A stretch of DNA of 64,000 bases, taken from NCBI GenBank assembly GCA_030062745.1, contig CP099839.1, positions 15,360,044 through 15,424,043 on the forward strand. The letters are read 5' to 3'. This DNA is from Capitulum mitella. Taxonomy: Eukaryota > Arthropoda > Thecostraca > Pollicipedomorpha > Pollicipedidae. Below the pieces are notes generated by a model, which was not told where the DNA came from, did no database searches, and saw only the letters and a list, made by a program, of their open reading frames with translations. This document shows, piece after piece, positions 20,402-58,680 of the stretch (position 1 is the stretch's first letter; the number at the start of each line of letters is the position of its first letter). A program made the translations under genes and the position numbers.

Positions 20402-23400
20402 CTATACAGATGAGCCGGACCAGTCGGCACTCGTCCGGCCGCCAGACGCTGGTGAACTCTGTGTCGCAGATCTCGCCGACCGCCTGCAGAATTAGCCGGC
20501 GGGGCTGGCCGGCCACACTGACCACACCCTGGCGGCAGAGGACACAGATCTCCACACCACGGCACACATTGACCACACCCTGACGGCGGAGGACACAGAC
20601 GGAACACTGCCATCTAACCACACCCTGACGGCAGAGGACACAGATCTCCACACCACGGCAGACACTGACCACACCCTGACGGCAGAGGACACAGATCTCC
20701 ACACCACGGCAGACACTGACCACACCCTGACGGCAGAGGACACAGATCTCCACAACACAACAGACACTGCCACACTGACCACACCCTGACAGCAGAGGAC
20801 ACAGCTTTCCACACCACGGCAGACACTGACCACACCCTGACGGCGGAGGACACAGATCTCCACACCACGACAGACACTGCCACACTGACCACACCCTGAC
20901 AGCAGAGGACACAGCTCTCCACACCACGGCAGACACTGACCACACCCTGACGGCAGAGGACACATCTCCACACCACGACAGACAATGCCACACTGACCAC
21001 ACCCTGACAGCAGAGGACACAGCTCTCCACACCACGGCAGACAATGACCACATCCTGACGGCAAAGGACACAGATCTCAACACCACGGCACACACTGACC
21101 ATACCCTGACGGCGGAGGACACAGACCTCCACACTACGGCAGACCCTGCCATAATGACCACACCTTGACGGCAAACGACACAGATTTCCACACCACGGCA
21201 CACACTGACCACACTGTGACGGCGGAGGACACGGATCTCCACACCACGGCAGACACTGCCTCTGGCCCCAATGGCCATACAGCAACGGAAGACAGCAGAT
21301 TCACAGACCTCCAAACAATGCAAGCGAGATCACTATCATTCACAGACCTCCACAGTTCACAGCGCTTCCACGGAACAATCAATCGCACCAACGGCTTATC
21401 TTATCAACCGGGTACACATAGTTTCTACAGCAAAGACCATCACACTTCGCCGCTCACACTAAACATGACTGAAACGATACAAAACGGAGGGCGCCGACGA
21501 GAGGGGCTCGAGAATCTGTCAGCCAGTCCTCCATTTAACACCATCTGTAGATCGGCCGGGGCCAAATCTCACACGGGACGCGCGGGACCGGCCGCTGTGT
21601 CGGCCCTCGGCGGCCTTTGAGCGCGCCCGGCCGGCCCATTCCGACCCGGTTGCGGAGCGGCCTGCAGAGCACTGCTCGGCACCGTCGGCCGGCGCCCGTC
21701 GGAGCCGATCGGCGCCGATAATCGGCCGACGGCCGCCGCCGCTCAATACGGAAGTGTACGCGCCGCGCCGCCGGCAAAAAAACCAGCTTTTCAGGCACGC
21801 AGCCGTCCTTTCACAGCGTGGAAAACTATTATGACAAGAGTTTGGCGGCGGGCCGGCGGCGGCGGCCTCTCCGGGAGCGGTTCGGCCGGCCCGCGCCGCC
21901 ACTCATCCACTACAGGCCGGAGCGCCTCCATTGATATCATACTACCTTTTATATTCATGAGGTAAACAGCCGCCTTTGTCGGGCCGGCCGGCTCGCGGTC
22001 TTTCATTAAGTGCGTGTGAATGGAGTTTACCGGGGCAGATAGAACTGGCCCACTGTGCGCCAGGGACAAAGGCGGCGGCCGGGCAGCTCCGGCGCTCTCT
22101 CCAGCGCTCTCCGGCCCCTCTCCGGCCGCTCTCCCCGGCCGCACGGAGCCCGGCAGCTCGGATTGGGACCGGCACCAAATGGCGGCCCGGCAGCCCGGAT
22201 TAGCACCACTCGCAGCCGGCCCGGCCCGGCCCGGCATGAACGGGTCGACGCCCGGGCGGCGGCGACGGACAGGACAGGACAGGACAGGACAGGACAGGAA
22301 AGAACGGAAGAGGAGGGGAGACGACATTACCAGAGGCGCATGGTGATCAAAATGAAAGCCTGACAGAAAAAAACAAAATTGCAACACAGCTCTCTGAGCA
22401 CAATCTCCCTCTACCCAACGAGGGAAACATGGTCAACCCGGAAACATAGCCTAACAAACACAACCGTATACAGACCATGCTAATTCATGAGCCAATATTA
22501 CCACAGGCGCAGTTACGAACGAGGACACACGGCAAAATCACGGAAGCGACTTGCCTTCATTCGGAGCATCTCCACTGGCTGGCCCCTCGTGTTCAGCACG
22601 CTCTTCTCCCAGAGCAGGCCGTGGACGAAGGTATCAAAGTCCTCCCGCCGCACACTGCCGCTGATCTCCAGGGTGACCGTACTCAGGCTCTGGAAGCAAA
22701 ACAACGTCCATAAAGACACCGTAAATTCTCACAGACATCGATCGCTGTTCCGCTGTCGTTGCATTTACTAAAAAGGAAACATGCTCCAATTATCGCCCAT
22801 TTCGATTCCGGATCTTTGAATGAAAACACTTCATAATGCCGCTTAGCCCACAACAGTACCTCGCGCAAATTGTTTAGCGACTTACACCACGGCACTGATT
22901 CAAACTCTGACAACAAGGCTGCAAAGAGGCATAAGAACAAGAGAAAAAATAGGTGACGCGAAACACCACATAAATTATGGTTGTACGTTGGGAGCTTTCC
23001 AAATAAAAAAGTGCCGTCTTATTACCTCATCTATATGTGATCCCTCAGGCAGAGCGAACTGTTTTTCTAGGCTGAAACAGGCAAACACACGTGTCCCACT
23101 TTGCCGCAGTTTTCACCGTCCCTGACGTGACGACAATCGCGATATCATGGTCGCCACGATAAGCTAAAAGAAAGATAAGCAGCGAGCGTACAAACACAAT
23201 AGTCGGGTCCGCCTGATCTCCTGTCTGCCCGAGACCAGACAAGCGCGCTGCGTCCCCTGATAACCTCTGCATCCACACAGCGACTCCCCAGCAATACCGA
23301 GCACCGTCTGAGGGACACCCTGCCAGTCACACCGAGCACTGTCACACGTGCACCGAGTCAGTCATACCCACCGCTGTCAGACGGACACCGTGTCGATGAC

Positions 23401-26108
23401 ACCGAGCACGGTCAGGCAGACACCGTGTCAGTGACACCGAGCACTGTCACACGTGCCAGTGACGCCGTCTAACAGTGGTCGGCCGTTTCAGTCTTATGCC
23501 CAAACGATGACGAACCGGAACCGGACGGAACCATTTCCACAGCACGAACTCGCACGGCCATTTTTGTACGACTGAGCCCGGCCAGTGTACCCGCTGGCTG
23601 TCGCAGCGGTCATCGCGTCACACCCTGACCGGCCAGCTCTGTACCAACCCGGTCAGACCCTTGCTGGCCAGCTCTGTACCAACCCGGTCAGACCCTTGCT
23701 GGCCAGCTCTGTACCAACCTGGTCAGACCCCTGCTGGCCAGCTCTGTACCAGCCCGGCCAGACCCCTGCTGGCCAGCTCTGTACCAGCCCGGCCAGACCC
23801 CTGCTGGCCAGCTCTGTACCAGACCGGCCAGACCCCTGCTGGCCAGCTCTGTACCAGACCGGCCAGACCCCTGCTGGCCAGCTCCGTACCAGCCGGCCAG
23901 ATCCCTGCTGGCCAGCTCTGTACCAGCCCGGCCAGACCCCTGCTGGCCAGCTCTGTACCAGACCGGCCAGACCCCTGCTGGCCAGCTCTGTACCAGCCCG
24001 GCCAGACCCCTGCTGGCCAGCTCTGTACCAGCCCGGCCAGACCCCTGCTGGCCAGCTCTGTACCAGACCGGCCAGACCCCGGCCCAGTGCAGCTGATTCT
24101 GGCCAGACGGCGGCCGCGGCCGGCCGGTCCGCCAGCTGACCGGCCGGCCAGAGCAGTGCGGGTGGCGACTGTCCCCCGCCGGCGAGCAAACAGAGGGGGC
24201 GTCACGCCGGGGGCGGGCGACATTTGCCGGTCATTGGCGGTGCGCGGCCACCATTAGCCGCCGGCCGGGCGGCCGCCGCCGGCGCCCCACAATGCCCGCT
24301 GACAGGTGCCCGCCATCGTTTATAACGCGTATGATAATTTTATAGAGGTGGCTTTTGTGGGGCCGGTTTATGACAGGGATGCGGCGGTCGGCCCCCGGCA
24401 CGAGCAGATTGGTCGCGATTAATTTCACCGAGGGGGCGTGATGAGGATTAGCCGCGGCGTATTAGACGGCAATGCTATACGGATGGGCGGCGTAACACCA
24501 TGCGCCGACTGATACACATCAGGGCGCGTGCACGGACGCAACTCTTCAGTACGTGCTGTCACTTCAAATAAGTCTGAGCGACCGCGATGTTGTTAATTAT
24601 AGCAATGCCGCTACATAATACCCAACATAAACAGGTATCAGAGCAATCGATAGTAAACAAGAAGCGTGCCGCGTCAAGACATCTACAATTTCGCAGCAAA
24701 ATATCAACGTGATGTCTAATGCGTCTTTATGCCTTCCCTGAAGTTCCCACTCCTCATTAAAATGGATGAATATCGCGTTATAACATAAAAAATAAATGGA
24801 GACGTGCCACTTACCACTGAAAATCCACCTGATCATATGCGTGAAGGTCTAAAATGTAGTCCAGGTCTACCCTGAAAGACGGGCATAAAAGTGATACAAG
24901 CGAAAAACCTTTCGGTTGTGCAGAGTTCCTTATTCTCTTGCTTGTCTGCCACTATCTAATTCAGAGCTTTCCTATATTTCCAAGTTCTAAAATACAGTCA
25001 TAACTTGGCAGAAAAGAACATTCGGAACAGTTACATGTATTTGGAGGCATCTTCGTTGCTACGAGCAAAGACATGGCGCGTGTTGGTAATAGCCGATCTC
25101 ATGCAAAGCTTTTAAGCAAGAATTGCGAAAGCAAGTAAACTGTAGTATAGCAAAGAGATATATAATCTGCCATAAAAACGTTCTTTTGGGGTCGATATTA
25201 ATGGCCGGTACGACACCAAGAAGCCAGTCCTATACTGCTCATTCTATCCAGCATTATTTAGGGTTCTGCTAAGCACATTACTCACTTTCCTGCAATAGCA
25301 CAACATAAATCGGAAAAAATGAAGCACTGCCAACACCTTTCGAACAAAACACCATGGAAGAAAAAATACCATCTTGAAGCAGTACACTGAGGCAATAAGA
25401 AATGCATCAAATATTTTTCATGGCCGGGGCAGCAAACTGTTCACAGGAAGCCAACGAGCATATGCATAAAAGTCCACTTCAACAAAAGGAGCAAGAGAAA
25501 TGTATACAAAGAATATTCCAAACTGCCCCATTCCAAAACCGATTTAAAAACAAAACGAATGCGACATGATATTACGCCCCAATAGGACTTTCAAAAGGAA
25601 ATGTTTCATTATAAGACGAGTCACTTTGTACCAATGATTCAGGTGAAGCAAAGTTCGATGTCTGACCATTCAACAACACCAACCGTATGATCAGACAAAT
25701 CAGGACATCTGACCACGATCTGCAGCGAGACATCTGACCACTGACCTGCAGCCGGACATCTGACCACGACCTGCAGCCGGACATCTGACCACGATCTGCA
25801 GCGAGACATCTGACCACGACCTGCAGCCGGACATCTGACCACTGACCTCCAGCCGGACATCTGACCACTGACCTGCAGCCGGACATCTCACCACTGACCT
25901 GCAGCGGGACATCTCACCACTGACCTGCAGCAGGACATCTCACCACTGACCTGCAGCCGGACATCTCACCACTGACCTGCAGCGGGACGTTTCCAGCAGT
26001 CGGGCGGCGCCGTTGATGGCTCGGAGCCGAGCTCGGACGCCGGCCAGCTGCTCGGCCGTCACCAGGTCCGTCTTGTTCAGGATCAGCAGGTCGGCCAGCG
26101 CCACCTGT
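20402..26108 (-). CDS. ZNG1 exons 6-10 (G4 motif and CobW C-terminal domain)
   Basis: Exon 6 25,977-26,108 ([16 protein letters not shown]). Exon 7 24,815-24,871 ([13 protein letters not shown]). Exon 8 23,026-23,071, only 46 nt ([15 protein letters not shown]). Exon 9 22,555-22,689 ([25 protein letters not shown]), ending AAG|GCAAGT, a GC donor. Exon 10 20,402-20,528 ([28 protein letters not shown]) with donor GTCAGT, so another exon follows. Exon 6 has a minisatellite on its donor and exon 10 one on its acceptor, each made of copies of that junction. Confidence 0.88.
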
Positions 26109-29100
26109 CTGCAGTGCGGAGCGGAGACGGAGCGGAGCGGAGACGTGGGACATTGTCGAGTGGCGATCGCTGCACTCCAAATATCGGCTAACGTAGACGA
26201 AGAGGCAGCCGCGTTGTCCGCACATCCCACTCGAACATAAATACACAGCTGGACAGCCTCCATCTTGTGATCCGTACGGCAGTTCATTCGGCAGCAGTTG
26301 GCACGACGACAGCAGTCAGAATAAAGCACATCCTAGACCAGTGGTTCCCAAACCTTCCCGTAGTGATGCCACTTCGTGACTGAGGTCCATTACCCCACTC
26401 AAAAAGAAGCTTGATACCTTGCTTTGGAATGAAACGCTTTATCTAGTTATGAGTGCCTGAGCACCAGTAACTTTTGTGGGACTTTATGTTTAGTACTATG
26501 GCTTTACACTAAATCGATCTGACCTTTAAATAATGTAAACCCTTGAGCGCCTACCTTTTTGAAAGGGTTCCCACCAGCTCATTTCCTCACCAGAACGGTC
26601 AAAATACTCCAAGTGGGATTATTATCCTCTGGGTTGGGAACCACTGTCTAGGACGGACTGTTCCACTTCAGCACGTGTTTTGAAACAGCCTCATTTTAGG
26701 ATTTAGTCTGAGAAAATCCGGTCAGTAACATACATATTACGTCTCGAAACTCTACACTTTAAGAAGCTGAAAGCGATTTCCACGGTTTTCCCGTGCGTCG
26801 TAATCGGGCGTGTTCTATTTTCAACTACTGCCTGAAGTCAACAGCGGGTGTCCGAGAACGCTTGCGTTTCTTGGTCTGCGTGGGCCAGTACTAAGTCATA
26901 TCCGCTCTATTGCGTTCAATCAATTCCATTTTCCGGAGCTACTTGACATTTTATTATGTCAAATAGACTATTGTTCGACATTCAAGACATTCTAATGCCT
27001 GACATTAGAAAAAGTAGGTATTAATAACGTTTTCAGCATCACCTTGTCAAACCAACCAAGTGCATTTATGAAAAATTGACCGAGTGGAAGTTCCCTTTTA
27101 ATTAAGTTAATGCGACGCATGTGCCACTGCAATTACAGACACTTATAAACGCTAGGGAACGAAAAGAACGAAACGAAAAATGCCATAAAGGCAACATCAC
27201 AGGACTGACTCGGCAAACTGGGCCAACAAATGGCATGCATCCGCAACATAGTGATAATGGAATCAGGGGCGGTAGACCATATTTTGTACATTATAATTAT
27301 AACTATTAGAAATTACTATTCGGAACATAACTGGGAAAACTTGGTATTCTTTGGGATATATTTGTTAATGATATGTGTTAGCTCGTCAGCCATGGTTGCG
27401 AGGATCCACCTTGAATATAACTGAATGACGACATCATAACATGACGCAAGTAACATAACTAACGACAACATTCCTGCCTATCGCGACAACCGTCACACGA
27501 TGGTGTGATGCAAAATGATCTTGACAGTCAAAAGCCGTCCAAAAATAATCCCATACTACTCAAAAACTGCATGCTATTTGCAGGAAATATTCGCACGCCG
27601 GAAAAAAACTGAGTATGCATTGAACCAAGATCGGTGCTGTGTGAAGGTTCCTGCCATCACTCCTCAGCCACCTTATAGCATCAAAACTGACGAATGTCCC
27701 CAACTGGTAAAGTCAATGATCAAACTCAGTCACCATCAGTATCAGTCGTTGTCTTATGCCAGCCGCCATCAGTCATCGTCCTGACCAAACATTAGCCACC
27801 ATCTGATGTACACCGCCATCATACGTCATCCTCCATTCAACGCCCGACATCACTGCTCGACATCAACGCCGCCTCCTGCCAGCCGCAACTTGACAAAGGC
27901 CACAACCTAGTGCTCTGAGCCGTCGACGGGACGAAGGACCAACACCCCAGGCCTGACACCGTCTGGTGATCAGACCTGATCCCGACGCCACTGATTGGCT
28001 CAGGCCAACAGAGAGCCGCACGTCCAGACAGCTGACAAACCGCATTACCGATATTAATCTGCCAATTTGGAAAAACGGATTAGCCACGAGCGAGAAGGCA
28101 CAACGAAATCAGCGCGGCCGGGCGCGGCTAATCGAATGTGGGCCGGCCCCACCCGCCGACGGCGGATACCAGAGCGAAGAGATCGAATCAGCCAGCAGAG
28201 ACGGCGGATAGCCGACAGTCGGACGGCAGACGGCGGGCAGGGGGACGGGCAGCAGACGGCGGACAGGATAGTAAGACGGCAGACGGCGGGTAGGGGGAGA
28301 CGGACGGCAGATGGGCCGCTCAGCCGCTTGATTCTCCAGCGACGAGGCTAGTCGACAGTGGAATACGTGGGTTCTTTTATCCGCAATTCAAGCGCCACAA
28401 TGGTCATCTGCGATCCCAATGGTGAGCTGCGTATTCGAGTTACGAGTATATCCCTTGGCTGAATGTCTGGCTCTCCATGTTCGGGTTCTCCGTTATGCTT
28501 TCCCCTTCTCGCGTGCGGCCCAGCAGACCACTCGCCGATCTGTCGGCGATGTCGCCACACCAGCGACATCAGAGCGTCAGCAGTCAGCACGGCCAGCGGA
28601 AATCGTAGCTCCGAGAGTCCTACAATGGACACCGGTTCTGGCCGCGTCCTTCTCCTCCGCCGCCATCAGAGCTACCACAGCTCACCTGGCCGGCGTCTGC
28701 GACACCCCTTCCGACTCCGCGCCGCCGCCGCCGCCGCCGGCGGCCCCGTCCAGCGCCTGCAACAGCAGCAGGGCCAGGCGGGCGTCAGCCGTGCTGGCTC
28801 CCGGCCGGCGGCAGCGGACCCCATTCAGTCCGGCCGCATAACGGCCCGACGACGGGCGCTGTTCTGCGACCCCAGCTTTACGAGGCCGACACCAGCCGTC
28901 GTAATGGCCAGTTTCGCAGCAGCGCTATTTGCATTGGCCCCTCCGTTCGGCCCGGTATGCCTCTGCAGCGCCAAAAACACCATCTGCTGGGCTTTAAATC
29001 AACTAGTATTTAAACGGCGATCGGCCGTTTCAGGCTAACAACACGCTCAAGTTACGACGGCGCCGACAGAAAGGAGTAGAGGCAGCATCATCATTGATCA

Positions 29101-31351
29101 CTCACCCTAACTATGTTCTTGGCATCAGCAACGGTAACTATGCCTGCAAGCACCAATAAAATCGTCATAAAAGATAACACATACACGTCTTAGAACACAA
29201 CTGTTCCTTTTCATAGTGCACGGCACTTCCGCAATAAAATCGCATAAAAATGATCACAAGCAATACGCAGACTTCGTTCGGACAAATCAATAGTGTTTAG
29301 CAGTCAAAAGGTTTATCATTTTCCAGAGAAGTCATAACGTGACATGTAAATGACGCGTAACGTGCGACGAGGCAGGAAGTAACACCAGGAACAAGCTCAC
29401 GGTTTGAACATGCTTTGAAATGATGTCCCCAGCACCCTTGAAGTGATGTACTAGATTACTGTCACACGACTTGATGTATTTCCCGCAAAAAAATCACCTA
29501 CTGTTTTAGGGGACATTAGTTATAAGTTGCTGTTTGCAAAACATGGGATACACATGACAATGAAAAGGACAATGATAGATCATTTTCTTCAAAATCAATG
29601 AGGATGGCACATCACCTGACTGATTAATTCCCAAAGAACACTGTAATGATGGGGAGACAGAATAGGAGAGAGGACTTACCATCCAAGTAAACATCGCTAC
29701 CGAGCTCTTTGTCTAGCCAGAATATGGAAGCCACAGGTCCTGGAAGCAATCCATTTGTGAACATCAAAAACAGAGCTATTTGCCACTCCAAGCTTGCGAG
29801 GACATTAATTTCCGCCGAATACGAGCAATGCAAGTCAAGATCGGACATTCTGAATGGCCTGCAAACATTTTTGACAGGAAATTATGACCAGGCTGAGTGA
29901 AATGAGGTTGGACGAGAAATTAATACCACTCACCTGGGTCTGCCAAGCCAGTGGTTTCCAGCAGAATGTAGTCAAAGCGACCTCGCTTCTGCATCAGATT
30001 CTCTATTGCCTTCACTCCATTATCCCTGTGACAGAAGCAATGACATCTGAAAGCATATATTTCCCCCAAGCCCACTTTCACAAATGAGCAATGCATCTAA
30101 AAACCACTTCAAAGAGTTTTGCAAAAAAACTCGGTAAGGGTGTTCCGGATCCTGGCCAGGGAGATCAATTCAGTGATAGGTTAGGATTATCTTCAAGGAG
30201 AAAAAGGGCCAGCCAAACAATAATTAGCCCATGCATTAAGTCAAACACCTGTGAAGCAAGCAGTGCAAACAAGCAGCAACAAAATCATCACTGTATAGAA
30301 GCATGACCAGTCACTTAGACCTTTGAAAACAATATTCCATGGGTATGCAAAAGACTGACAAAACTAGCCATTTGCCAGCATCATGGTTCAACAGCTCCCA
30401 AATGGTGCAATAGCTGATTGACAAAATTATCCTCATGCAGAAGCAACTAGTTCTCCAGCATTTCACAGCCACATATCTCTGAGATATGGCTATGCAAGGG
30501 ACAGTCTGATTCTGCAGCAGCCTGAACTAATGTGCCTGTTATGTTGTACACTACCAAATCCCAGATGTGCTTGGCACTTGGGAGACAGAACAACCAATGA
30601 TTTGCTGAGTCATTTCCTGTTTTCCCTGTATCAAATCCTGCTCTGACATGGTTATATTTACTACCAATTAGACAAAAAGCAAACATGAATTGATTGCACC
30701 AATGAAAATCAGCCAAACCAAGGACAGTTCATTGCAAAATGGTCAATAAGGATGGTGAATGATGCAATCCCACTGCATTTGATGAGGGTATCTCACTTGA
30801 CAGAACAGCATAAGCATCCATTTCTCAGCTCCAGCCACTCCTCATACATATTTCCTTGTTCACCTATGGATAAACTCTTTTCCATAGCACTACCTGGAAG
30901 CAGAAGAATCATCTAGGTGTGACAGGCAATGCACAAACAAGCAGTGACAGTGACTGTGTTGGATCAGTGGGCAACTTCTCTGCTCCCATCATTACTTGAC
31001 ACATTGCATGGTGCATGGTGAATAATCAGCAATAATTGACATGAATATCTATCATTGTTTTAGGACTTAATCCTGCAAATTTTGATCCATGCAATCAAAC
31101 TATGAATAAATGCAATTAAACAACATTCTAATCCTAAGGTACACATGACAATATAAACACGTTCCATGCATAATACTACCTTCTCCAAATTCATTCAAGA
31201 TGACTGCTATCCGCTTGTTATGCTGTTCCGTCAGAATGTAGTTCAGTAATGTGGTTTTTCCAGCCCCCAAACAGCCAGTGATTATGAGCACAGGAATGGG
31301 TGCATATTCAGCTGGTACCAGCTCAGGAATACAGTCTTCATCATCAGACAT
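20402..31351 (-). CDS. ZNG1/CBWD zinc-chaperone GTPase (COG0523), ten exons, 3' end missing
   Basis: GTPase metallochaperone of the CobW/COG0523 family that delivers zinc to methionine aminopeptidase 1. Ten exons were joined by eye; all phases agree and give 1,030 nt (343 codons plus one base). The usual length is about 395, so about 30-50 C-terminal residues are missing and their exon was not found. Motifs in order: PELVP near residue 10 (METAP1-binding segment), P-loop GCLGAGKTT (26-34), the zinc-binding GCLCC (83-87), [11 protein letters not shown], and the G4 motif NKTD (189-192). The C-terminal CobW_C domain begins at exon 9 (STVTLE, LLWEK). The exon 9 donor is GC instead of GT. Introns are large for so small a gene and carry three minisatellites and a hAT-type MITE. 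It lies downstream of IntS1 in the same orientation, 1.4 kb apart. Confidence 0.92.
20529..21290 (-). repeat. Junction minisatellite at the ZNG1 exon 10 acceptor
   Basis: About 13-14 tandem units of roughly 50-60 bp. On the minus strand each unit contains CTCTGCCGTCAG followed by GGTGTGGTCAGTGT. The real exon 10 begins at 20,528 with the same CAG|GGTGTGGTCAGTGT. So the unit is a copy of the 3' splice site plus the first 14 coding bases. Units differ by a few substitutions (GTCAG or GCCAG or GCTGTCAG), so the array is not freshly homogenised. Long open frames across the array are an artefact of the repeat. Confidence 0.9.
21900..22060. promoter_or_regulatory. Candidate regulatory island inside ZNG1 intron 9
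   Basis: Inside a GC-rich block (21.55-22.26 kb) lies an AT-cored segment with a forkhead-type GGTAAACA (about 21,960), CATTAAGTG, and TTGATATCATAC. A GGATTAGC follows at about 22,197. It could be a FoxD or homeobox enhancer placed in a neighbouring gene's intron. Supported only by motif density. Confidence 0.25.
22267..22300. repeat. (GGACA)n microsatellite
   Basis: About six tandem GGACA units at the edge of the GC-rich block. Confidence 0.9.
23290..23455. repeat. Degenerate tandem repeat
   Basis: Imperfect repeats of ACACCGAGCACTGTCAC-like units mixed with ACGGACACCGTGTC units, about 30-60 bp apart, in ZNG1 intron 7. No exon copy recognised. Confidence 0.6.
23625..24075. repeat. 35-bp minisatellite in ZNG1 intron 7
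   Basis: About 12 near-identical units of 35 bp containing CCAGCTCTGTACCAGCCC and GGCCAGACCCCTGCTGG. The array is far from both flanking exons, and the unit matches neither. It is therefore an ordinary minisatellite, useful as a contrast to the junction arrays. The first units (CAACCCGGTCAGACCCTTGC) differ from the later ones, giving the array a direction. Confidence 0.92.
24240..24480. promoter_or_regulatory. Candidate regulatory island in ZNG1 intron 7
   Basis: A GC-rich block with embedded AT cores: CCATTAGCCG, CGTTTATAACGCG, ATGATAATTTTATAGAGG, GGTTTATGACAGG, GCGATTAATTTC and GAGGATTAGCCGCG. TTTATGA/TTTATAA and GGATTA are Hox-like and K50 homeodomain sites. The pattern resembles the FoxD flank at 6.6-7.3 kb. 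Function inferred only. Confidence 0.25.
25690..25976 (-). repeat. Junction minisatellite at the ZNG1 exon 6 donor
   Basis: About 11 tandem units of 26 bp. On the minus strand the unit reads CCCGCTGCAG, then GTCAGTGGTGAGATGT. The exon ends with CCCGCTGCAG and is followed by GTCAGTGGTGAGATGT, so each unit is the last coding bases plus the 5' splice site. Every unit offers GTCAGT and GGTGAG donors. Substitutions such as GGTGAG to GGTCAG and GTCAGT to GTCGTG are shared by neighbouring units. Confidence 0.93.
26339..26646 (+). mobile_element. hAT-type MITE in ZNG1 intron 5
   Basis: Starts CAGTGGTTCCCAAACC and ends GGTTGGGAACCACTG, which are near-perfect inverted repeats of the hAT CAGKGGTTC type. 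The flanking octamers TCCTAGAC and TCTAGGAC are a diverged 8-bp target duplication. No transposase frame. Confidence 0.75.
26660..27110 (+). repeat. Dispersed repeat, diverged copy B
   Basis: Partner of the copy at about 60-560. Similarity runs from the region before TTCTATTTTCAACTACTGCC to GAAAAATTGACCGAGTGG. It sits in ZNG1 intron 5 directly after the MITE. Confidence 0.45.
27110..28680. other. ZNG1 intron 5, remaining part
   Basis: No coding exon seen. It turns GC-rich from about 28,000, with CGGATTAGCC (28,076) and GGCTAATCG (28,125). A minisatellite of GACGGCAGACGGCGGG-like units lies at about 28,198-28,315. Confidence 0.5.
28686..31351 (-). CDS. ZNG1 exons 1-5 (GTP- and zinc-binding part)
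   Basis: Exon 1 31,180-31,351 holds the ATG, PELVP and the P-loop. Exon 2 30,797-30,893 holds [10 protein letters not shown] and the CxCC motif. Exon 3 29,934-30,025 holds [19 protein letters not shown]. Exon 4 29,680-29,739 holds [14 protein letters not shown]. Exon 5 28,686-28,797 is weakest: both splice sites and phases fit and it reads [14 protein letters not shown], then a run of glycines encoded by GGC repeats, where other animals have a conserved VD-containing strand and a charged loop. Exons 1-3 lie in a CpG-depleted block and use AT-richer codons than exon 5 onward. Confidence 0.88.
30150..31159. other. CpG-free block over the 5' part of ZNG1
   Basis: About 1.0 kb between the CpG at about 30,147 and the one at about 31,160 contains none that I could find, and the wider 29.94-31.6 kb region has fewer than ten. 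It covers exon 2 and intron 1. TG and CA are abundant. The rest of ZNG1 is CpG-rich. This pattern points to germline methylation and decay of the 5' gene body. Confidence 0.75.
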
Positions 31352-32735
31352 GCTGCATGAATTCTGGGAAAAAAGAAAACAATACTGTGCAGAAGACCCA
31401 CATCACAAGCTTTGGTTAAAATACCAATGCAATATACCCAGCCCATGTTACCAATTTTAAGGCATTTAAAGGCCTCTCAACTACATGTGAAGTGCAATCA
31501 CACATGTTTGGACAATATTCGAGCATAATGTTGACTGCTAAAGCAAACTTCTAAAGCATTTCTTCTTCTCTGGTACAAGCATCTGGCCTCATTTTTGGCA
31601 TGCCGTGATCCACATCCAGGCGGTGTACATATACACAGAGAGGACACACTCAGATTCCCTAAAAAAGGCACTTATGCCCATGGGAAATTTCTTACACGAC
31701 CCATTGTGTAACAAGATTTTGGGGCATTAGCCCAAAGTTGCCATGGTTTGCAATCAGATGCATTAATAAACAACCCAACACATCGGGATACATGGGTCAT
31801 TGCTCTCAAACAGACGGGCGAAAAAAATAGCTCTCTTTACCCTGAAGCTTCCTTGTATCAGTAGGGTTCTTGACTACGGCAAAAACCCTGACACTCCGTT
31901 TTCCGTATTTCTGATTTCGCTGCATGCATTGCGATACAACAGTTTAAAGAAACACACAGGTGCAGAGTACTTTTGACGATTGTCTCAGCTGCACCAAATC
32001 TGTAGTTGTACAATCCTACCAAATCAGAGAAATTTTACCCAGTTCTTCTGCTCCTTACAATGGAAAAACGTCAAGTTTAACCGCAACCTCAGGCTGAGTT
32101 ATCCAAAGTGCTGCACAATACAGTTCACGCCCTGACCACTTAACGCCCATGCCTACTGATGTGATTACGTCAGTTCCATCCGCATTACAGTTTAAGATTG
32201 TTTCGCGAAACCTGCGAAACACTAATGAAATCTCAGTCGAGCAATTAGCAAGGATTAAGACTCTTCATCTGTCTACTTTTACCACCGTAACACGATTTCA
32301 CAAAATATCGTCGTTTCCGTGGGATCATCCGCGTAAAAAACGCGACGCTTAAACGACCCTTCGTCGGGAACGAAGACGTTAATGCAGGTACGAAACACGG
32401 AACTAAATATAATATCAGATAAGTTCGGATGGAAGGTAAAAGACCGACACATATCACATTCAGACACATTCATAACACCCAGCACTTGTGCACAAGGTGT
32501 TACCTAAGACCAGTCATGAAACTCGCCTACGGGCGGCCAATGATAGTTGCCGGCTGGGCGTTGTATTATCTAGGAGCTCTAAAACCGAGCCGGCGATTAA
32601 AAGAGCGGCGTTTTGCTCTGTGAGACATCCCGCTACAAAGAATGAAAAAAGCCCGTGCGACCGACAAAATGTATTTCAACTGTCACAACACATCCAGTCA
32701 TTGGCCCGGGTGACTGAGTGGCAGACACCCGCCAC
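31352..32735. other. IntS1-ZNG1 intergenic spacer with the ZNG1 promoter
   Basis: About 1.4 kb between the IntS1 stop and the ZNG1 start codon, both genes on the minus strand. CpG content returns to normal from about 31,800, which suggests the ZNG1 start site lies at about 31.6-32.3 kb. No TATA box stands out. No IntS1 AATAAA was noticed. Confidence 0.45.
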
Positions 32736-42700: not shown

Positions 42701-45700
42701 TGGCCGCGAACTCGTGGCCGCCCTTGGCGCCGCGCTGGTGCTGCACCTCCACCAGCTGGGCCATGTACTCCTTGTTCATGACGGCCCCGGCCACGGCGGC
42801 CGGGTCGGCCGACACCGCGGCGTCCAGAGCCATCAGCAGCTTCCTGTCGACACGCGGCCGCTGCTTCAGTACACGAGGTAACGTTCGCCGCCGCGGTGGT
42901 GGCTGCCGCAGACAACAGAAGACAACGGCGCGAGGTTACGGAAATCCGCAACTGTCTGTGACGTTGCAGTCGCCGTGATATTTTTGATGACGCCATTTTT
43001 TCTAATGTACTTCCACGCTCTGGGATAAAGCTGACTGGATGCTGACACTATAAGGCAGAGGTACTTTTATGAGTCCCACAAGCTATTTCCATTATTTCAC
43101 AAAGACAAATCGCCGTTTCCCGGGCCACACAAAGCAGACCCTGCCGGCCTGCCGTGCCGCTGGAGTATCCTCTGCCGCGTCCTCTCGCCGCCCACTCACG
43201 TCATGCTGGCCACCGGCACGCCGAACGACTGGATGAAGAGCACCAGCTGGGCGGGCTCGAGGCCGGCCAGGGCGGCGTCCACCAGCCGCGGCGCCGTGCT
43301 GCGCACCATGCGCAGCTTCAGCCAGTCCGGGTACAGCGGGGTCGAGTCCAGCGTGCGCGGCGCCGGCCCAGCCGCCGGGAACCAGATGTCCATCAGCTGG
43401 TCGAACAGCTCACAGTCTGCGGGAGGGGGGGGGGGGCCGGCTGGCGTCTCGATACGTCGGCAAGTCGGGCGGAACGGCGTCGTCAGCGCGCAGCCGGCAG
43501 TGTTCAGCTCCACGGCAAACGGGTGTCCAACTCGACAACGGCGTGGGTACGCGGCTCTGAGTGTAATGATTCTCCGCCGAAATTCTGGTTCTACTGATAC
43601 AATGCTCGCTCTGTCGCTCTGTCATAACAGCCATGGGCGACATGACAACATGTGACAGTACACAACAGCCATTACCAGGCGTCAAACTGACCTGGGCCCG
43701 GGTGGTACGTCAGCAGAATCACTACAGCGTGCACGACCAGAGTGTTGATGGCTGCGGTGCGACCGGACGGCCAGCGGACCAGCACCAGGTCAGCACTCTC
43801 AGCCCAGCTGTACACACCCTCCGGCTCCCCCACCTGCAGACAGACAGACAGCGAGCGACACATCGTCACCAGAAGACCAGCACTAGGTCAGCACTCTCAG
43901 CCCAGCTATACACACCCTCCGGCTCCCCCACCTGCAGACAGACAGACAGCGAGCGACACATCGTCACCAGAAGACCAGCACTAGGTCAGCACTCTCAGCC
44001 CAGCTGTACACACCCTGCGGCTCCCCCACCTGCAGACAGACAGAGAGCGACACATCGTCACCAGAAGACCAGCACCAGGTCAGCACTCTCAGCCCAGCTG
44101 TACACATCCTGCGGCTCCCCCACCTGCAGACAGACAGAGAGCGACACATCGTCACTAGACCAGCACCAGGTCAGCATTCTCAGCCCAGCTGTACACATCC
44201 TCCGGCGCCCCGACCAGCAGACAGACAGACAAACAGACAAACAGGCAGACTAGCGACAACTGACGAGGCGACCGCGTCATTTACGCAAAGCCTCAGACTA
44301 AGAGGTGAGGGCAAGCTAATTTACGTGGCAACCCATAAATCTAAAGCCCACAAATGTGAGCGCATGATGCGACACACTGGCAAAGACAAAACGAAACAGC
44401 CGACGTCCCCACGTAGCCACGCTTGGACAACCCACAGCATGCACACAATACACAAGTCACGTTCTTATCGGTAAACCAGAAAACGGATGTCATTCCTTCA
44501 TCGCCAGGAGCACCACACCACATCACACGTAGCACCAGGACAAAGGGCATCGCAGTACCGTGCACACCATCTCTGGCCACATGCACCACCCATTCCTTCC
44601 CAGCACTCCTCCGGGCCTCCTGGCAGTCCCTCCCCGGCCGACCACGGGCCGGCCGGCCGCTCACCTGCTGCATGTAGGTGTTGAAGATGTGCAGCAGGGC
44701 GCGCAGGCAAAGCTGGGCGGCCGGCGGCGCGCGCGGCTCGCTCGGCAGCAGGGCGGCCACGATGGTGCTGCGCTCGACCACCAGCTGAGCCAGGTCCACC
44801 ACGGTCTCGGTCAGCTCCGGCAAAGGGTCGGACGAGCCGTGCGCCGCCAGAAACTGCACGTACGCCCCCACCAGGCCCGGCTCCGTCTCGTACTGGCAAC
44901 ACACACGCATCGTGACGGTGTACATACGCAGCCGGATGGCAGGATGACGAGGAAGCCTGGTAACGTTGGGCATACAGAAATATACGGCCGATGAAATGCA
45001 GGGATATAATAAGACATATTGGTTATGGTTGAAGCCTTCTTCGCAAAGGTCTCCGTGCAAAAAAAGCAGATGAACTGGCGGTACTCCGTCTACCATCACC
45101 AGGAGCGACAGCAATCTTCTTTCACCCTTCACTTCGTCCTTGAAACTTATTTTGCTCGAAAAACATGGCAGCACACCATGAAAGCCATATCCACAGAAGG
45201 ATGACCAAACATGTGCGACACCTGTCTCAGGTAGGGGAGGCTGGTCAGGGTACACTCACGTGACAGGCGATCCGCAGGCCGTGTACGGCTTCCTGCCTCA
45301 GGCGCGGGAGGCTGGTCAGGGAACACTCACGACAGGCCACCGCGGAGGCCCCGCCCAGGTGGGGAGGCTGGTCAGGCAACACTCACGTGACAGGCGATCC
45401 GCAGGCCGTGTACGGCTCCCTGCCTCAGGTGGGGGAGGCTGGTCAGGCAACACTCACGTGGCAGGCGATCCGCAGGCCGTGTATGGCTCCCTGCCTCAGA
45501 TGGTGGAAGTTGGGCACGGCCGGCAGGTGACGCAGCAGCCATGCGTACGGCTCCTGGCTCTCCGGTGATGTCGGCTCCGGCGGGAGAAGAACCAGCTCGA
45601 ACCCCTGCACAGAGCGACAGCGACCTCGTCAACAGCGCAGGCAACATGTGACGCTGTAGGCTTCTTATAAACGCTTCCAATCGTCCACTGAAGTGAACGC

Positions 45701-48700
45701 GTCTGTGGCACCATCCGCTGATTGGAATCATTCAAAGCACAGAGTAAAAGATGACCGGAGATGTCCATTTTAAGTCATTACACCTCGGCACTTCCAAGAC
45801 AACGACCACCGCCGCATCGTCCGTATGAACACCACCCGAGTAACGGCACATTTTTATGCCGGTCTTCCACAGCCCACCAAGAGAACACAAAACCCCATGC
45901 CATGAGATACCACTCGAGCCCCTTTCCTCGCCAACAGAGGCCGAGGTGGTCCGGGGTAAAGCGGGTCTCCCTCGCACCTTGGCCGCCTGCAGCCGTGCCT
46001 GGCGCTGCTGAGAGCTCAGACGCCGCAGGAAGTACTCCACCAATTCGACGTTGGCGCGCTGGTCGTGGCTGGGATGCCGCACCAGGCGCTGCAGGTGCGA
46101 CAGCAGCTCCTGGTGCTTGGCCTGGGTTGGCGGCCGCACGGCGCCGCCTCCGTCGTCCACGGCACCCACCGATTGGGTCAGCAGGAACTCACACAGACAC
46201 TGCACCGGCAGTACACTGCGAACAACAGACACCAATTGGGTCAGCAGGCACTCACAAACACTGCACCGGCAGGACACTGCGAACAACACACACCGACTGG
46301 GTCAGCAGGAACTCTCACAGACACTGCATCGGCACGACACTGCGAACAACAGACACAGACTGGGTCAGCAGGAATTCACACACAGACACGGCCCCGACAG
46401 GACACCGCCAACAGCAGACACCGACTGGGCCAGCAGGAACTCACACACACATGGCCCCGACAGGACACTGCAAACAACAGATACCGACTGGGTCAGCAGG
46501 AACTCACACAGACATTGCACCGGCAGTACATCGTGGACGACGGCTGGACAAGTTACTGCCGACTGTAGCCGGATAACCAATGAAATGTCAGCACGCCGGA
46601 TAACAGACGCAAGCTGGTTCAACAGGAACTGTCAAAAACAATGCGCCCACTACACGCCGCGAACAACGCTCAAAATGGGAAACAGCGGCCGGGCAATGTT
46701 CTTTAAAAATGAATTGCATCAAGGTGGTAGCGGGCAAACAAATCATACATAACATTAGGATGCTTCCATGGACGACGAATTGATGGATGAATTCCATGGA
46801 TGAATCCGACATGATGCTCTTCGAAACATTCTGTCCAGTCCAGTGCTCCGCCAAACAGGAAAACGCCCTAAACAGTCCAGCTCCCCGTCAAACACATTCA
46901 CACAGACCACGCCACGCACTGGTCAGAGTACCTAACCAGCCGGCCAACGCCCGTCGTGCCAGCGCCAACCGAGCAGCTTGCGGCCGCCGCTCACCTGAAG
47001 GCGCCCTCGTTGTTCTGCACCAGGTCGGAGAGCCAGGGCATGCTCTGGTTGGGGCCCTGCCGGTGCAGAATGTCCAGCAGGAAGTCGGGATCGCGCGAGG
47101 TGCAGAGCAGCTGGCCCAGCCGCAGTGAGCTGTTGAGCTGCGCCAGCTGCTCCAGAACGGGCGATGGCGGACGGCGGCAAGGCCCGGTCGGGTCCAGCGA
47201 GATTAGCTGAAACACACGCGCTCGGTTTGTCGGAGACGGTTCCAGATCACGATCAGCAGCGGCAGCAGCAGCAGCACTCCTCGGCTGACAGCGACCAAGC
47301 GGCGGCAGGTGGGTCCAGAGAGCAGCCGTTACCTCAGCCATACACCAGAGGTGGCCTCCGCGCCAGAGTCCCAGAGCCTAGTACCGGGGCCAGCAGCCGA
47401 CTGTTGGCCGCTGAGATGGTTTGACCTCTCTGTGCCTGTTCACTGATAGACTGCCTGTCACTGATAGACCAGGGTTGGCCTCTGCGATGGTCTGGCCAGC
47501 GGGCGCCGCCGCCGGGTCAGTTAGGTCTGAGACAGTCCGGGGACGCGCCGTGGCCACAGTACCTGGCTCAGCAGTAGGCTATTGGTCTCCGTGATGGTTT
47601 CGCCGGTGGAGGCGGCCGCCAGGTGGGACTCGTACTCGAGGATCTGGCGGCGCTCGATGGCGACTATCTGCAGCTCCTTGGTGCGCGCCTCGTCCGCCCG
47701 CTCGCCGGACGCCATCGTCGGAGGCGGAAAACGAAACGAGCTGGCAGCAGACGGCGTCGGACAGTCACCGGTCGGCACCGTGTCACTGAGTGGCGGCCAT
47801 ACGAATAAATCACTGGCGGTACGCCCTGTAGAAGCGATACCATCACGTATCAGCGACACCATTACAGCGTGCTGGATTACAAATTCGTGACGTTAATACT
47901 CTTGCACACACAGAGGTATGCAAAATGAATCACGTAAATGTGTGGAATGCAGAGTAGCAAAACCTAATACGCACAGCGTTTCCAGTACATCAACCATCCA
48001 TCATTCGCCAGCTACAAAACAAAACACCAAGATGCGATCCACGCTAGGACATCGGAAAATTCCCGACACCACATCAGCTCACTTGGTAATGCACATCTCC
48101 ATGAGCATCTTGAGCGTGTCGTAGTGCTCCCAGGCCATCTTGCCGAAGGTGGCCGGGTTGTGGGCGCAGACGATGAGCAGGATGACCCAAACGCGCCAGT
48201 AGCGCTCCTGAATGGCCAGCTGCGGCGGCACGTAGCCCTCCGGCAGGCTCATGTGCTCCGGCTGCTGGTACACCGTCAGGTTGAACAGCAAGTCGACGAT
48301 CTCCAGCTTGTCCAGCTGCAGCGTGGCCGTCTCCGTCTGCAGGTGGCACTGGGCCGAGCGGCGCACCAGGTTCTCGGCAACCTCCAGCGCGTTGGCCGCC
48401 GACATGGCCAGCGTCTGCCGCGCGGGGAGCGGACACCAGGTCAGTGTGCACCAGGGCGGCGTCAGAACGTGGGCGGGGAGCGCCCCTCAGATCCTCGCCC
48501 CTCAAATCGTCGGCGGCGCGCTGTCCGAGGACAGGAAACTGGCGCGACGCAGGCGGCCACACTTCAGGTCAGGCGTGCCGACAACGAACGCGGGAGACGC
48601 CTCATTACGCTGGCCCAACCCAAGAGACCCCGTCAGCATTGACTGACAGCACGACAGTGCAGAGCGTCCCGGCCTCATCAGGACGGTCCCACCGCGCGGC

Positions 48701-51700
48701 AAAACCCCGGCCTCCGCGCCGCCGCCGGCGCTGGCCGGGCCGCTACCTCCGGCTCGGCGCCACGGAGCGGTGCCACCGGCAGTCGGCGGCGTACCTTGGA
48801 GAATCCGATAAGCAGCACGCGCAGCAGGGTGTCCTGCAGCACGGGAGCATCGGACGCCACGCGGATCATGAGCGCGCGCTCGTTCTCGGTCGGCCAGTTG
48901 TCGTGTTTGTGGTACGATTCGGCCGGCTCCAAGAACAGCACCTGACGGAGCACGTACAAACGAGTGCTGCGGGACGGGGTTGGAAGTCCAGAAGCCACGA
49001 ATCACTCAACATGGTGGCCAGAGCTGATAAATCACTGGCTCGAATGCTCAGGGCATCGTGTTTGATGATCTGATGTTTGATACTTGATTTGCATGAGCAG
49101 CATCAGTTTAAGTTCAGACACAGCGAGAGCCCGGCACACGTGCTGGGGTCCCAATGGAATGCGGGTCATCCTCGTTTTGCGTCGGATTCTAAGCTGACCA
49201 GGGCAAATGTTGCGTCACCTGGGCACCGCTTAGCTCCGGAAGGACATAACCCTTTCGAGATGACGCAATGGCCCTCCCAGGTCAACGAGGGATTGCATAC
49301 AACATGGGGATGATCCGCATTCCGACGGGATCCAGGCATATGTCTGGCGCCCGGTCACGAACACAGACCGATGTACGGACATCCTGCAACAGACTTTCAC
49401 GGCCGACTGGCCTGACACACCTTGTAGACGCAGTGTGGAAACTCGGCCCAGTTCTTGGCGGTCATGTCCGGCACTGCCACGTGCAACCAGACAATGGCGT
49501 CCCTCTGAATCTGCGACACCAGCGCCTGGTACGCCTGCGGACGGCACGGCCGGCGTAGCCACGTTATCAGGCTCCTGTCCACAGGCGTCTGCAGTCGGAC
49601 GACGTCCAAGCCACAGACAGAACTGGCGCACACTCCACAGGCCACTAAAGTGACGTCTCAAAGCGACCAACACCACATCTGATCTCAATACGTGACCGTT
49701 CATCATCCACAATGACTGGCTTATCGACACGGCCATGTTGCCTCTCGACCGGCGGCGTCCGCCCACGGCACGGCACACGAGGACCCTGGCCCCGGAGCAC
49801 GCGCCGCCCGGCGCCGCGTCTGCGCCGTCCCAGCTCCGTACCGTGAGCGGGGCCGTGTCGGGCTTCTCGCCCGGCCGGCACGACGCCGCCTCCTTGACGG
49901 CCGGCGTGATGGCCAGCAGGATGCTGAGCGCCACCAGGTCGCAGACGGACGTCACGTACCGCTCGCGGAACTCCAACTCGCGGAAAGCCGCGTCCTGGCG
50001 GCGGCGCAGCGGTTAGCAGGACGTACTGGCGGCGGCGCAGCGGTTAGCAGGACGTCCTGGCGACGGCGCAGCGGTTAGCCGGGCGCGGAGGGTGCGGTCA
50101 GCTGAAACGTCGCGATGTGGCGGCGGCCATCGCAACCATCATGGCATCCGGCGAGGACGTGGTACCTCACGAGGAACTGGGACGCCGTGGAGCGCGACGT
50201 CGGACAAAGCTGGTCTGGCCCCTGAAAAGCTCACCTAATTTTTTCCATGGACCGTGCCCATCATCTACCGAGCACTTGGCCACCAAAGAATAACGTGCCA
50301 ATGAAAAGGAATCGATATATTTCTTGAGAAATCGAATGCTTCTTTTGCACGACCGCTAGAAAAAATACCTGTATCGATGAAGGCCACAGACATCTCACAC
50401 ATCCCATTCATGCACGTAAGCACAGGTCTGCCGTCAACGCACCTTTCGATCCTGGAAGAGGCCGGAGCAAAACTTGTAGAAGTCGACCTCGTAGCGTAGC
50501 GAGCGGCAGATTTCGCGCCAGAGCGGCCTCAGCGCTCTCAGGTAGTCGTCCTTGTTCATCAACAGCTCCTGCGGTCAGGCGGAACAGCATGCCGAATTAA
50601 TCACGGCCAGACAGGACAGTCAAGCGAATGGCAAACAGCGGCCGACGAGACGCTGGACCATTAATCGTAAAACGTTAAATCCTTCTCCAGCAATGACCCG
50701 ACACCTGCACCACAGACTCGCTCTATCAGCACAGGTCATTCACGGTTCCCCTCCTCGAGCCTCGCGGCAGCACTGACCAGGAACACCTCGGCCAGAATCG
50801 CTGCCGCCTGCTGCGCGGAATGCTGGAACACGGCGCCCAGCACGGCCATGTTGTGCGGATTCCGGGTCACCGACAGCTCGTTGTAGATCGTGTGCTTCAG
50901 CAGGGTGGTCATGTTGTCCGGGTGGGCGGCCAGCAGCTCCCTGCCCGGTGGGGCACGCGTCACGGTCGGCACACGAGGTCATTGCCCCAGCTGGTCAGAG
51001 TGACACTATTCAGACGTACAACTGTCATCAGCAAGTTACGCAGAATCATAAAGACCGGTAAAACGGCATCCTTTTGGTTTGGTGTTAGCGCATTGACCCT
51101 GATCAATGGCGCATGATTCCATGACGTTTCACTTTTACTTAATTATATACTCAGCTTTTAAATACGCCTGAAATATTCGCAGGTAACATTCTGACAATGT
51201 CTGAAGAATGTATTAAGGTTCATGGGCATCGAGATCCTCGGAAAGTGGTATCGCCACCCACCTCATGCAGTTCAGATAGAGGTTGATGATGGGCTTAGCC
51301 TTGAGCCGGAAACGGACCAGCTGGGAGATGACGTCAGTGTCGAACTGCGTGTGTGACGTCAGGTTCGTACAGAGCGAGACGAGCAGCTCCTGGGCGGGCC
51401 GGGACCACTTGGGGCTCTGCAGCCACACCTCCAGACGGGAGACGACACGCTGCCTCACCTGCCGCACGTAACACGGGACGGCCTCAACCCACCGTCTGGG
51501 GCAGTCACCTGTTCGGCGACACTAACTTGGGATCTCTCAAAAATGGTCACCACCATCCCCAGTCAGCGAGGCGCCAAGGAAATTAGGACACAGGTCAACT
51601 CATGGTCGTGGCTAAAACAGTACGGCCAAAGGAAAGAAAGACCCTATGCTACACCGCCTCAAACAAGTCCCACATTTTCCAAATGATGGGCGATGGGCGT

Positions 51701-54700
51701 CGATGGGCGCCAGGGGGCGATTCGGGCCCAGATTTACAGGAGCGACCATCCCCCTGGAGAGCACAGACGTCCAGTCGCGCGGACGGTCCGGCCCACCGCA
51801 GCGCCGGCCGCCCCACCTCCGGTATTCCGCAGACCGAGGCCAACAGGCGCAGGATGTTCCTGGTCACCGTCTCGATCGGCTGCTTCCTGGGGCCGATGTA
51901 CTCCTTCACAGCGTCCAGCACCAGTGTGCGGATCCGCTCCTGCTGTGTCTCGTACCTGGCGACACGGTGCGGGACAGGGTCAGGGATCCGCTCCTGCCGT
52001 TTCGTACCTGGCGACACGGTACGGGACAGGGCGTCTCGTACATGGCGACACGGTGAATAAGCGAGACCGCTCCTGCCGTCTCGTACCTGGCGACACGGTG
52101 CGGGACAGGGTCAGGGATCCGCTCCTGCCGTCTCGTACCTGGCGACACGGTACGGGACAGGGTCAGGGATCCGCTCCTGCCGTCTCGTACCTGGGCAAGC
52201 GGTCCGGCGCGGGGCCGGGAATCTGGACCGGTTCCCCGACTCTCGCCATGGCTAGAACGCCGTTCCGCAGTTCTGGGATTCACGATCAGCATCCAAATAA
52301 CAAGCGAAATTGTTTGAACGAGGCTGCGGCTCGTTTCTCCAGTCGCAGGATTTCAGCCGTCGTCGATTAACCTGGATTTCAGGACGCTGGTTTTGTACGT
52401 CGCGCTTAGCCAGAGAAAACACTTCGGCCCAAACCAGTCCTCTTAATACACGGAACACGCAGGGCGCCGGATCCCGTGACCCAGTCGCAGGTCCGGCCGG
52501 TCAACTCACCGCGGCGTCACCGTGTGGCCAGACTTCTCGTCCAGCACGATGCTGAAGCCGGTGCTGTCGTCGTCATCCATGCCGGGAGCCGAGCTGGAGG
52601 AGGCTGCCGGCGACGGAGAAAAACAGCCGGTCTCGGTCAGCCACAGCCAGACACGGCAACTCAAGCGGCAACACACCGAAGGAAAATGGCCCGCCGCCGA
52701 CGGTCGTCCGGGGCAGTGCAGCCCTAGAGACAACACCCAGGCGCGGAAAAGACAGACGGAAAGCTGCAGCTTCGCAGCCTGGGGCGGATTCCGCGCGCAG
52801 AATCAATGACAATGTTAACCGAAACGAAGTCGTGAGTACCAGAACGGCGAGACAAAATGCCTACTGTACGATGGCGCAAATGAGGACATCGGCTACACAG
52901 GACAGCACGACACCGACAGACCTGGAGTGTTAGTCAGTAAGGTCAGTAAGAGAGAGGGAATTCCATATCTAATGGAGTGTGAGGACAAGGGACCCGTAAA
53001 AGAGTGGGGGCTCCGCATTTGCTGGAGCCTCAGGACAGGAACTTTGGCACTGGCTCGATTGACAGGCCGTGTGCCACGTGCCTGTCTACATTTGAGCCTG
53101 GCAGAGTACCGATGGTGGTCAGCCAGCGTAAGAACACAATAGTTTTGTGTCCGTCGCAGTGCAAAATCTCGAGCTCCGTCTTAGTTAGTGTGCGAGTACC
53201 GCAGTTCCGCGCAAATAGAATGGCAACAGGAGTAGAAACCAGTCCACCAGAGTGTAAGGTCAGTACTCAGCAGGAGTGTGACATCGCACGCTCCGGATCC
53301 GTCAGAATGTGCGATCTGGAATTTCCCATCCCAATCCGAGGCGCTGTGCTCACAGGCGCCGGGCGGCGAGGGGCAGTCTGGCCGAGCGCCCAGCGTGATG
53401 TCCGGCTGCAGCATCGACTTAGGCGACACACGCGTGCCGAACGCCGTCACCACGTTCTCCACGAACGGCTTGCACTCCTCGCTGTCCACCCATAGGCGGT
53501 CGCCTGCGGCGTCGTCCAGGTACACCTGTTTGCCAAAGGCAGGCTCGACGTCACTGCCAAGGAAATGCGCATGGACGGCAAATGTTGCGATTCTGGTAGG
53601 ACCAGTCCAGAAAGCCACATCAAAAATAATTTGGAGATACGATGGCCTTGGCCAACATACGAGAATCGTAGCAAGATGCCTCTTCCATGCATGTCGCTGG
53701 GGATGCACGACACAGACATTCACACATGCACCATGTGACACAGACCGATAAAATCTTTCCAATACTTCCAAAGGCTTTGCCACCCACACCCGCCAGACCC
53801 AAATCACTCAGCGGCCCATTTACCAGCCACTCACCCGGACGAAGATCTCCTTCCAGTGGTTCTCGTCGCGGAACACGGAGTAGAGCACGTTGGCGGCCAG
53901 TACCTGCACCTGCGGGTTGCCCTTGGACTTGAAGCTGGCGGCGGCGTCCCGGCGCAAGAGCCAGCAGATGGCGGCCAGAGCCGTCTCCGAACAGAACACG
54001 GCCGGCTGCGTCTTGGCCAGCAGCAGCAGGCTCAGGCTCAGGCCGGGGTCAGGCTTGGCGCGCTGGGCGTGCAGCTGGCGCACGGCGCCGCAGATGAGCG
54101 CCTCGGCGCGCAGAAAGTCGGCCTCGGCCACCGCCGAGACCAGGTCGGTAGAGGGCGGCAGGTCCACGGCCACCGACTGCCAGGCCTCCATCTCGGCCGG
54201 CCGCGCCACCTACCGACGGCCGAGACCGCGTCACCCACGGACTGGCTGAGCTGAGCCAAAGCCGCGCACACCGCGTCACATTCGCACTAGCTGTGCAGAA
54301 CCAAAACAGCAGAGACTATGTCACACCAGGACCCCCAGACCAGGGGTCTGGGGGCCCAGACCCTCCTTAGACCTGCATTTTTGTGGGAAACATTACACAT
54401 CATTTTCCCAGCAGTCAGTTTCTCCACGATTGCAGTTCACAATGAGCTCCAGGCCCTCCCACCTTAGAAAATCCTTGCTGCACCCCTGATGTCCCATTTT
54501 GGCTAAATGAGCCAAACCAAAACAGACTTGATGCTGGAGGGATGTAGACTTTCACTGCTCCAAAATGGCGTGAAAGGCATCTAGGCTCATTTAAGTCCAT
54601 AAAAAAACAGAGCATTTATAAATGGCACTTCACAAGCACAATTACTCCCAAATTAGAAAGGCTCCAGGACAGTAATATGCAAAAAAGGTAACCAGAACAT

Positions 54701-57190: not shown

Positions 57191-57343
57191 AATGACGTCA
57201 TATATGGGAAAATTCTATTCTGTTGCCACAAACTGAACTTGGAGGAACTGCTGAATTATTATGCCATTATATTATTGTATTAGATAATTTTTGGGATGTC
57301 TGATATCAGTATTATTACATTATGGCATTTAATACTCATTAGA

Positions 57344-58632: not shown

Positions 58633-58680
<48 letters not shown>

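Follow-up and report, generated by a model that had tools for sequence, protein, structure and literature searches.

Do exon boundaries act as seeds for tandem repeats, or do repeats that can arise anywhere come to lie across them for other reasons? The question is raised by a 64,000-nucleotide stretch of the genome of the thecostracan arthropod Capitulum mitella (assembly GCA_030062745.1, contig CP099839.1, positions 15,360,044–15,424,043; the whole stretch is called the window here, and coordinates below are positions in it). In two adjacent genes of the window, IntS1 and ZNG1, an initial annotation had described arrays at 12 exon junctions whose units copy the junction itself. A repeat search blind to the exon map recovers the same 12 junctions, two of them as thin cases, and they account for 12 of the 17 non-microsatellite repeat loci of the two genes (seven acceptors and five donors). 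The annotation's suggestion that exon boundaries are the preferred seed is borne out in so far as every null model of seed placement that was tried leaves an excess when both genes are pooled, but a substantial share of it is accounted for by GC content, and per base the junctions are covered no more than the introns.

Exon models were built from minus-strand stop-to-stop reading frames, phase-matched splice-site scoring and comparison with the solved human IntS1. The IntS1 gene (32738–55242, minus strand) is modeled as 35 exons that encode 2077 amino acids with no internal stops, and the model matches human Integrator subunit 1 chains (1045.6 bits for the first part, E = 1.2e-166 for the second). 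The ZNG1 gene (20402–31351, minus strand), modeled from splice scoring and domains, comprises exons 1 through 11, with the last exon or exons not located, and the 11-exon model contains CobW and CobW_C domains. Its exon 2 (30797–30893) is absent from the initial annotation, so that the junctions assigned there to ZNG1 exons 10 and 6 belong to exons 11 and 7, and the IntS1 exon numbers are the same in both. Exon 10 of ZNG1 apparently has a GC donor site (22553–22555).

Repeats were searched with Tandem Repeats Finder (TRF) and with a lag scan, the latter in place of a BLAST self-comparison, which overlooked close tandem copies. At a score of at least 18 the lag scan gives 201 matches, as against 2, 1, and 0 in three shuffles, and these merge into 19 repeat loci between 20300 and 55400. 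A coding poly-alanine match between IntS1 exons 24 and 25 was left out of all locus counts, and a GGACA repeat (22267–22324) was left out of the 17-locus tests and counted in the per-threshold tallies where it was found. The 17 remaining units span 26–107 bp with a GC content of 0.55–0.75, as GC-rich minisatellites do (about 10–100 bp, richer than the surroundings). Junction loci make up 12 of 21 at a lag-scan threshold of 16, 12 of 18 at 18, 10 of 13 at 25, and 9 of 11 at 40. If at least four matching bases are required on both sides of the junction, 11 loci remain; IntS1 exon 29, where the intron side is GT alone, qualifies only under the looser rule, and it is one of the two thin cases, the other being IntS1 exon 10 with four exon bases. 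The word array suits nine of the 12, at which TRF lists one and roughly three copies or more lie in tandem over the junction (at least 2.9 by TRF; exon 17 by alignment); IntS1 exons 14, 23, and 29, for which TRF lists none, have only degenerate two- to three-copy duplications.

All 12 junction loci are read on the minus strand and were delimited by lag scan and alignment, with TRF in addition at the nine arrays. Among the IntS1 acceptors, a 52-bp array (51930–52223) takes in 26 bases of exon 6 (51817–51955), a 31-bp array (49991–50085) the four bases of exon 10 (49842–49994), a 63-bp array (46154–46668) 53–62 bases of exon 16 (45978–46215), an array with copies spaced 91, 94, and 98 bp apart (43771–44231; its unit is entered as their mean, 96) 57–63 bases of exon 19 (43692–43833), a 45-bp array (42138–42536) 12–15 bases of exon 22 (41995–42152), and a 67-bp array (35050–35633) 29 bases of exon 31 (34886–35078). 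At IntS1 donors there are degenerate copies (47380–47624) with up to 62 bases of exon 14 (47563–47740), a 71-bp array (45221–45519) with 50–62 bases of exon 17 (45458–45604), a 67-bp duplication (41271–41418) with 39 bases of exon 23 (41380–41541), and a two-copy duplication at a lag of 49 (36294–36369) with 25 bases of exon 29 (36345–36612) plus the GT. The two ZNG1 cases are a 26-bp array (25703–25993) at the donor of exon 7 (25977–26108), with 12–17 exon bases, and a 51-bp array with higher-order periods of 110 and 379 (20509–21260) at the acceptor of exon 11 (20402–20528), with 17–20 exon bases. On average half of a unit is exon sequence (mean share 0.50, sd 0.18), and the spread of the shares cannot be told from uniform (P = 0.43), although these shares were entered by hand and that of exon 29 is ill-defined. 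As the initial annotation also stated, the arrays have no sequence in common: when 15 units were compared (12 junction and three intronic, those at 39894 and 54225 being excluded), the 12 junction units gave no match to one another, which speaks against a single spreading, introner-like repeat. The weak matches in that comparison were between the exon 23 unit and one intronic unit (70% over a length of 57) and between one pair of intronic units.

The number of junction loci was compared with a seed null, in which the first single-copy unit of each locus is placed anywhere viable, that is, in introns or across a junction with exon-internal positions barred, after arrays have been collapsed. With uniform placement 3.1 of the 17 loci are expected to contain a junction (P = 2.2e-6 for the 12 seen), and with strict borders of at least eight bases on each side nine are seen where 2.5 are expected (P = 1.9e-4). 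GC content differs between exons (0.65) and collapsed introns (0.52), and the five purely intronic units are themselves GC-rich (mean 0.66 vs 0.51 in 50-bp intronic windows, P = 0.005). When placement is matched on GC, 5.6 loci are expected (P = 1.1e-3), and when skew is matched as well, 5.4 (P = 5.8e-4); a GC weight taken from the intronic units only gives 5.2–5.3 (P = 6e-4 to 7e-4), and the maximum-likelihood weight gives 4.5–4.6 (P = 1.3e-4 to 1.7e-4), or 3.5 to 5.4 across its interval. Tests that allow for GC thus expect 4.5–5.6 of 17, and the excess is 2.1–2.6 fold (P = 1e-4 to 1e-3). If the thin cases are scored as misses, 10 are seen and 4.3–4.9 expected (P = 0.003–0.008), and IntS1 by itself has 10 of 12 (P = 0.001–0.005 over the GC weights). 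Inclusion of the junction seems to count for more than nearness to an exon: 12 loci contain a junction and a single further locus comes within 60 bp of an exon but leaves the junction out, where under the GC weights 6.9–7.3 inclusions among the 13 (P = 0.003–0.004) and 4.0–4.1 near misses are expected, so mere proximity to exons is not supported as the cause.

Five of the 17 loci are counter-examples with no junction in them. Three were found by TRF and lag scan in ZNG1 introns: in intron 8, a 35-bp array 217 bp from the nearest exon (23288–23456) and a second 35-bp array of 13 copies (23617–24083), and in intron 6, a 53-bp two-copy repeat (28214–28298). The lag scan alone found the other two, in IntS1 intron 26 a two-copy repeat at a lag of 93 bp with an exon 81 bp away (39894–40045), and a repeat at a lag of 45 bp that lies 16 bp off IntS1 exon 3 with the junction outside it (54225–54325); with GGACA, they bring the non-junction loci to six. 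The 29 kb of flanks (1–20300 and 55400–64000) hold 10 repeat loci, namely two AT microsatellites, one TTAGG tract, two stretches of GC-rich DNA within coding frames, and five weak matches (score 18–22). The TTAGG tract, the only high-scoring multi-copy array among them, is an interstitial pentamer array with 14 exact copies (57373–57504), and TTAGG is the arthropod telomere motif. The flanks are a poor control because both genes identified in them are single reading frames, one with a Forkhead domain (5160–6263, minus strand) and the other with Chromo and CBX7_C domains (60863–61720, plus strand).

What might produce the excess? We put at about even odds a reading in which GC-rich DNA duplicates in tandem, splicing filters the products, and a junction bias of as yet unexplained cause is left over. 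Ordinary DNA-level duplication, by slippage or unequal exchange, would start on GC-rich single-copy DNA that spans a junction; a duplication inside an exon would harm the protein and be lost, and one across a junction would bring its own splice site, of which only the outermost copy would be needed and the others would become intronic. This filter, together with the preference for GC-rich DNA seen in the purely intronic units, could account in part for why the repeats gather at exon edges. The remaining two- to threefold excess of junction-containing units would then suggest that the junction itself is favored, and our first guess at a cause would be some property of the DNA at the exon edge, for instance a sharp GC step or a nucleosome edge. 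Duplication followed by exchange, of the kind that the higher-order periods of the ZNG1 exon 11 array suggest, would suffice to build the arrays. A more far-reaching form of the idea, which we hold only tentatively, is that splice junctions are tandem-duplication hot spots in this lineage, that the exon edge duplicates several times more often than similar DNA nearby, and that introns grow outward as decayed copies of splice sites; something at the exon edge, perhaps the GC step or nucleosome edge, a paused polymerase, or a nascent-RNA hybrid, would be the cause. Several observations weigh against a junction bias of either kind. Only two genes and 17 loci are involved, the pattern was spotted in the same data in which it is tested, and the borders of several loci, like several unit lengths, were chosen by hand. 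The GC weight is only loosely known (1.2–10), and the preference for GC rests mainly on the five intronic units because junction units are not clearly GC-richer than junction windows at large (0.641 vs 0.610, P = 0.17). When strict borders are combined with GC the P value lies between 0.003 and 0.014, with nine seen and 4.5 expected under GC matching (P = 0.014) and 4.3 under GC and skew matching (P = 0.009). ZNG1 by itself has two junction loci of five (P about 0.055), the weakest loci in the gene region are similar in strength to the weak matches of the flanks, and the arrays contain 65 rival AG or GT sites whose scores, with weights taken from non-array introns, are at most 3 bits below those of the true sites. 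Counted per base, repeats cross 11 of 89 junctions and cover 16.9% of intronic points. We think that seed counting is the fairer measure because arrays lengthen introns and so inflate intron coverage, and the choice affects the outcome. The raised expectation under GC weighting, the strict-border P values, and the per-base coverage are what would be expected if there were no junction bias at all, with GC-rich minisatellites purged from exon interiors and the rest due to luck and to the way in which the pattern was spotted. That is possible, if somewhat doubtful: the excess survives every seed null with the genes pooled, and the shortage of loci that lie near a junction without including it is not predicted by it. 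In any case, a rule for the whole genome cannot be established from two genes.

The copies within the arrays bear on the other explanations. Their alignment shows that units continue without a break from intron into exon, and at IntS1 exons 16, 19, and 31 the exon part encodes residues common to human IntS1, so that in these three the exon copy is the original from which the intronic ones derive. In seven of eight arrays the copies nearer the exon are the more similar to it (sign test, P = 0.035). This gradient suits a scheme of anchored survival, in which arrays arise anywhere, exchange with the constrained exon copy keeps some of them recognizable, and purely intronic ones decay. We consider that scheme unlikely, since loci with a TRF identity of at least 90% show the excess as well (five of six contain a junction, P = 0.003–0.005 over the GC weights, and seven of 11 in the rest, five of which TRF does not list), which makes it doubtful that differential decay alone is responsible. 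Repair at the boundary templated by transcripts or splicing intermediates, a possibility raised in the initial annotation, would fit the apparent confinement of high-scoring multi-copy minisatellites other than TTAGG to two intron-rich genes. The unbroken units, however, bar spliced mRNA, the excised lariat, and the free 5′ exon as templates; with the candidates thus narrowed to unspliced RNA or, for acceptors, the lariat-exon, we regard this origin as very improbable. Selection for redundant splice sites, also proposed there, or for regulated alternative splicing can point to the 65 rival sites and to copies that retain the junction AG or GT (106 of 119 aligned letters), and yet it is hardly credible. 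Ranked within its own unit, the junction dinucleotide is kept no better than the unit's other dinucleotides (mean percentile 0.50 over nine arrays, P = 0.49; conservation across copies is 86% at intron-derived and 81% at exon-derived positions), use of a rival site would extend the exon in frame and without a stop at only eight of the 65, and only four of the 12 unit lengths are divisible by three, the averaged 96 of exon 19 included. The copies have the look of decoys that are tolerated rather than of spares put to use, and the conserved protein, which the exon-proximal copy fits, leads us to infer that the outermost copy alone is probably used.

Other interpretations were considered and set aside. 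The arrays are not supported as coding repeats, since frame is ignored in eight of nine (their copy spacings are not all multiples of three) and in most unit lengths. The exception is the exon 22 array, in which 15 of 15 listed lags are multiples of three, although the lags are not independent of one another; its rival sites 45, 90, and 135 nt upstream run into an in-frame stop. Weaker splice sites at the array junctions are not supported either (donors, P = 0.48; acceptors, P = 0.20). No clear excess of boundary identity that would indicate intron birth by exon duplication was seen among 44 introns when their starts were compared with the starts of the following exons and their ends with the ends of the preceding ones (20-nt identity of 6.05 in matched and 5.59 in mismatched pairs, sd 2.04, and 6.70 vs 6.52), a comparison in which old duplications would have faded. 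Assembly error is unlikely because the copies differ, mostly by 5–25%, and because one array has higher-order periods.

Single repeats across a junction are already known, and to call the pattern undescribed, as the initial annotation did, was too strong for such cases. The passages cited here on human CBS describe two. One is a 31-bp variable number tandem repeat (VNTR) on the exon 13/intron 13 boundary (PMC5188458), which resembles the present repeats in position and, at IntS1 exon 10, in unit length, but is one locus in one gene and variable in people, whereas 12 junctions of two adjacent genes in one assembly are concerned here. The other, 844ins68, duplicates the intron 7/exon 8 junction, and the more distal site is strongly favored so that normal mRNA results (PMC2630376); this is the behavior proposed above for the acceptor arrays, although 844ins68 is a single extra copy in one gene and not an array. 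Human segmental-duplication genes also have internal tandem repeats at exon–intron boundaries that alter splicing, with 27 intron modifications after manual inspection (PMC2812944), but those are in recently duplicated primate paralogs and many genes, and the passages that report them state no boundary preference. In the intron gains by tandem duplication described for potato RdRp (PMC4974935), Drosophila (PMC2891723), and the 24-nt repeats of fission yeast (PMC3629103), the duplicated copies likewise bear splice signals and end up intronic; those events made new introns, whereas here the end of an existing intron seems to have been amplified, with no clear signature of birth. A literature search turned up no paper reporting that minisatellites favor splice junctions, and neither the clustering at a dozen junctions of two neighboring genes nor a GC-corrected excess appeared in it, a weak negative given its narrow coverage, with most subscription journals outside it. 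If the pattern were true genome-wide, it would amount to a mutational process linked to the architecture of genes and to a source of intron growth, and it would provide a natural series of genes with many near-identical decoy sites in which to probe how the spliceosome chooses the outermost one. Gene annotation would also be biased, because aligners of spliced reads can make mistakes where sequences are repeated (PMC10632439).

A few further features of the gene region stand apart from the repeats. On the plus strand between 20001 and 54000, A exceeds T and C exceeds G in each 2-kb step, so that the coding strand is rich in T and G, and the strong skew of A over T is missing from most steps in the flanks. 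IntS1 intron 29 contains an inverted repeat of 129 nt (36009–36270) with arms 89% complementary and a 4-nt spacer, and a perfect inverted repeat of 16 nt lies at 36895–36930. IntS1 intron 27 holds a tRNA-Pro (AGG) gene (38370–38441) on the minus strand, the same strand as IntS1.

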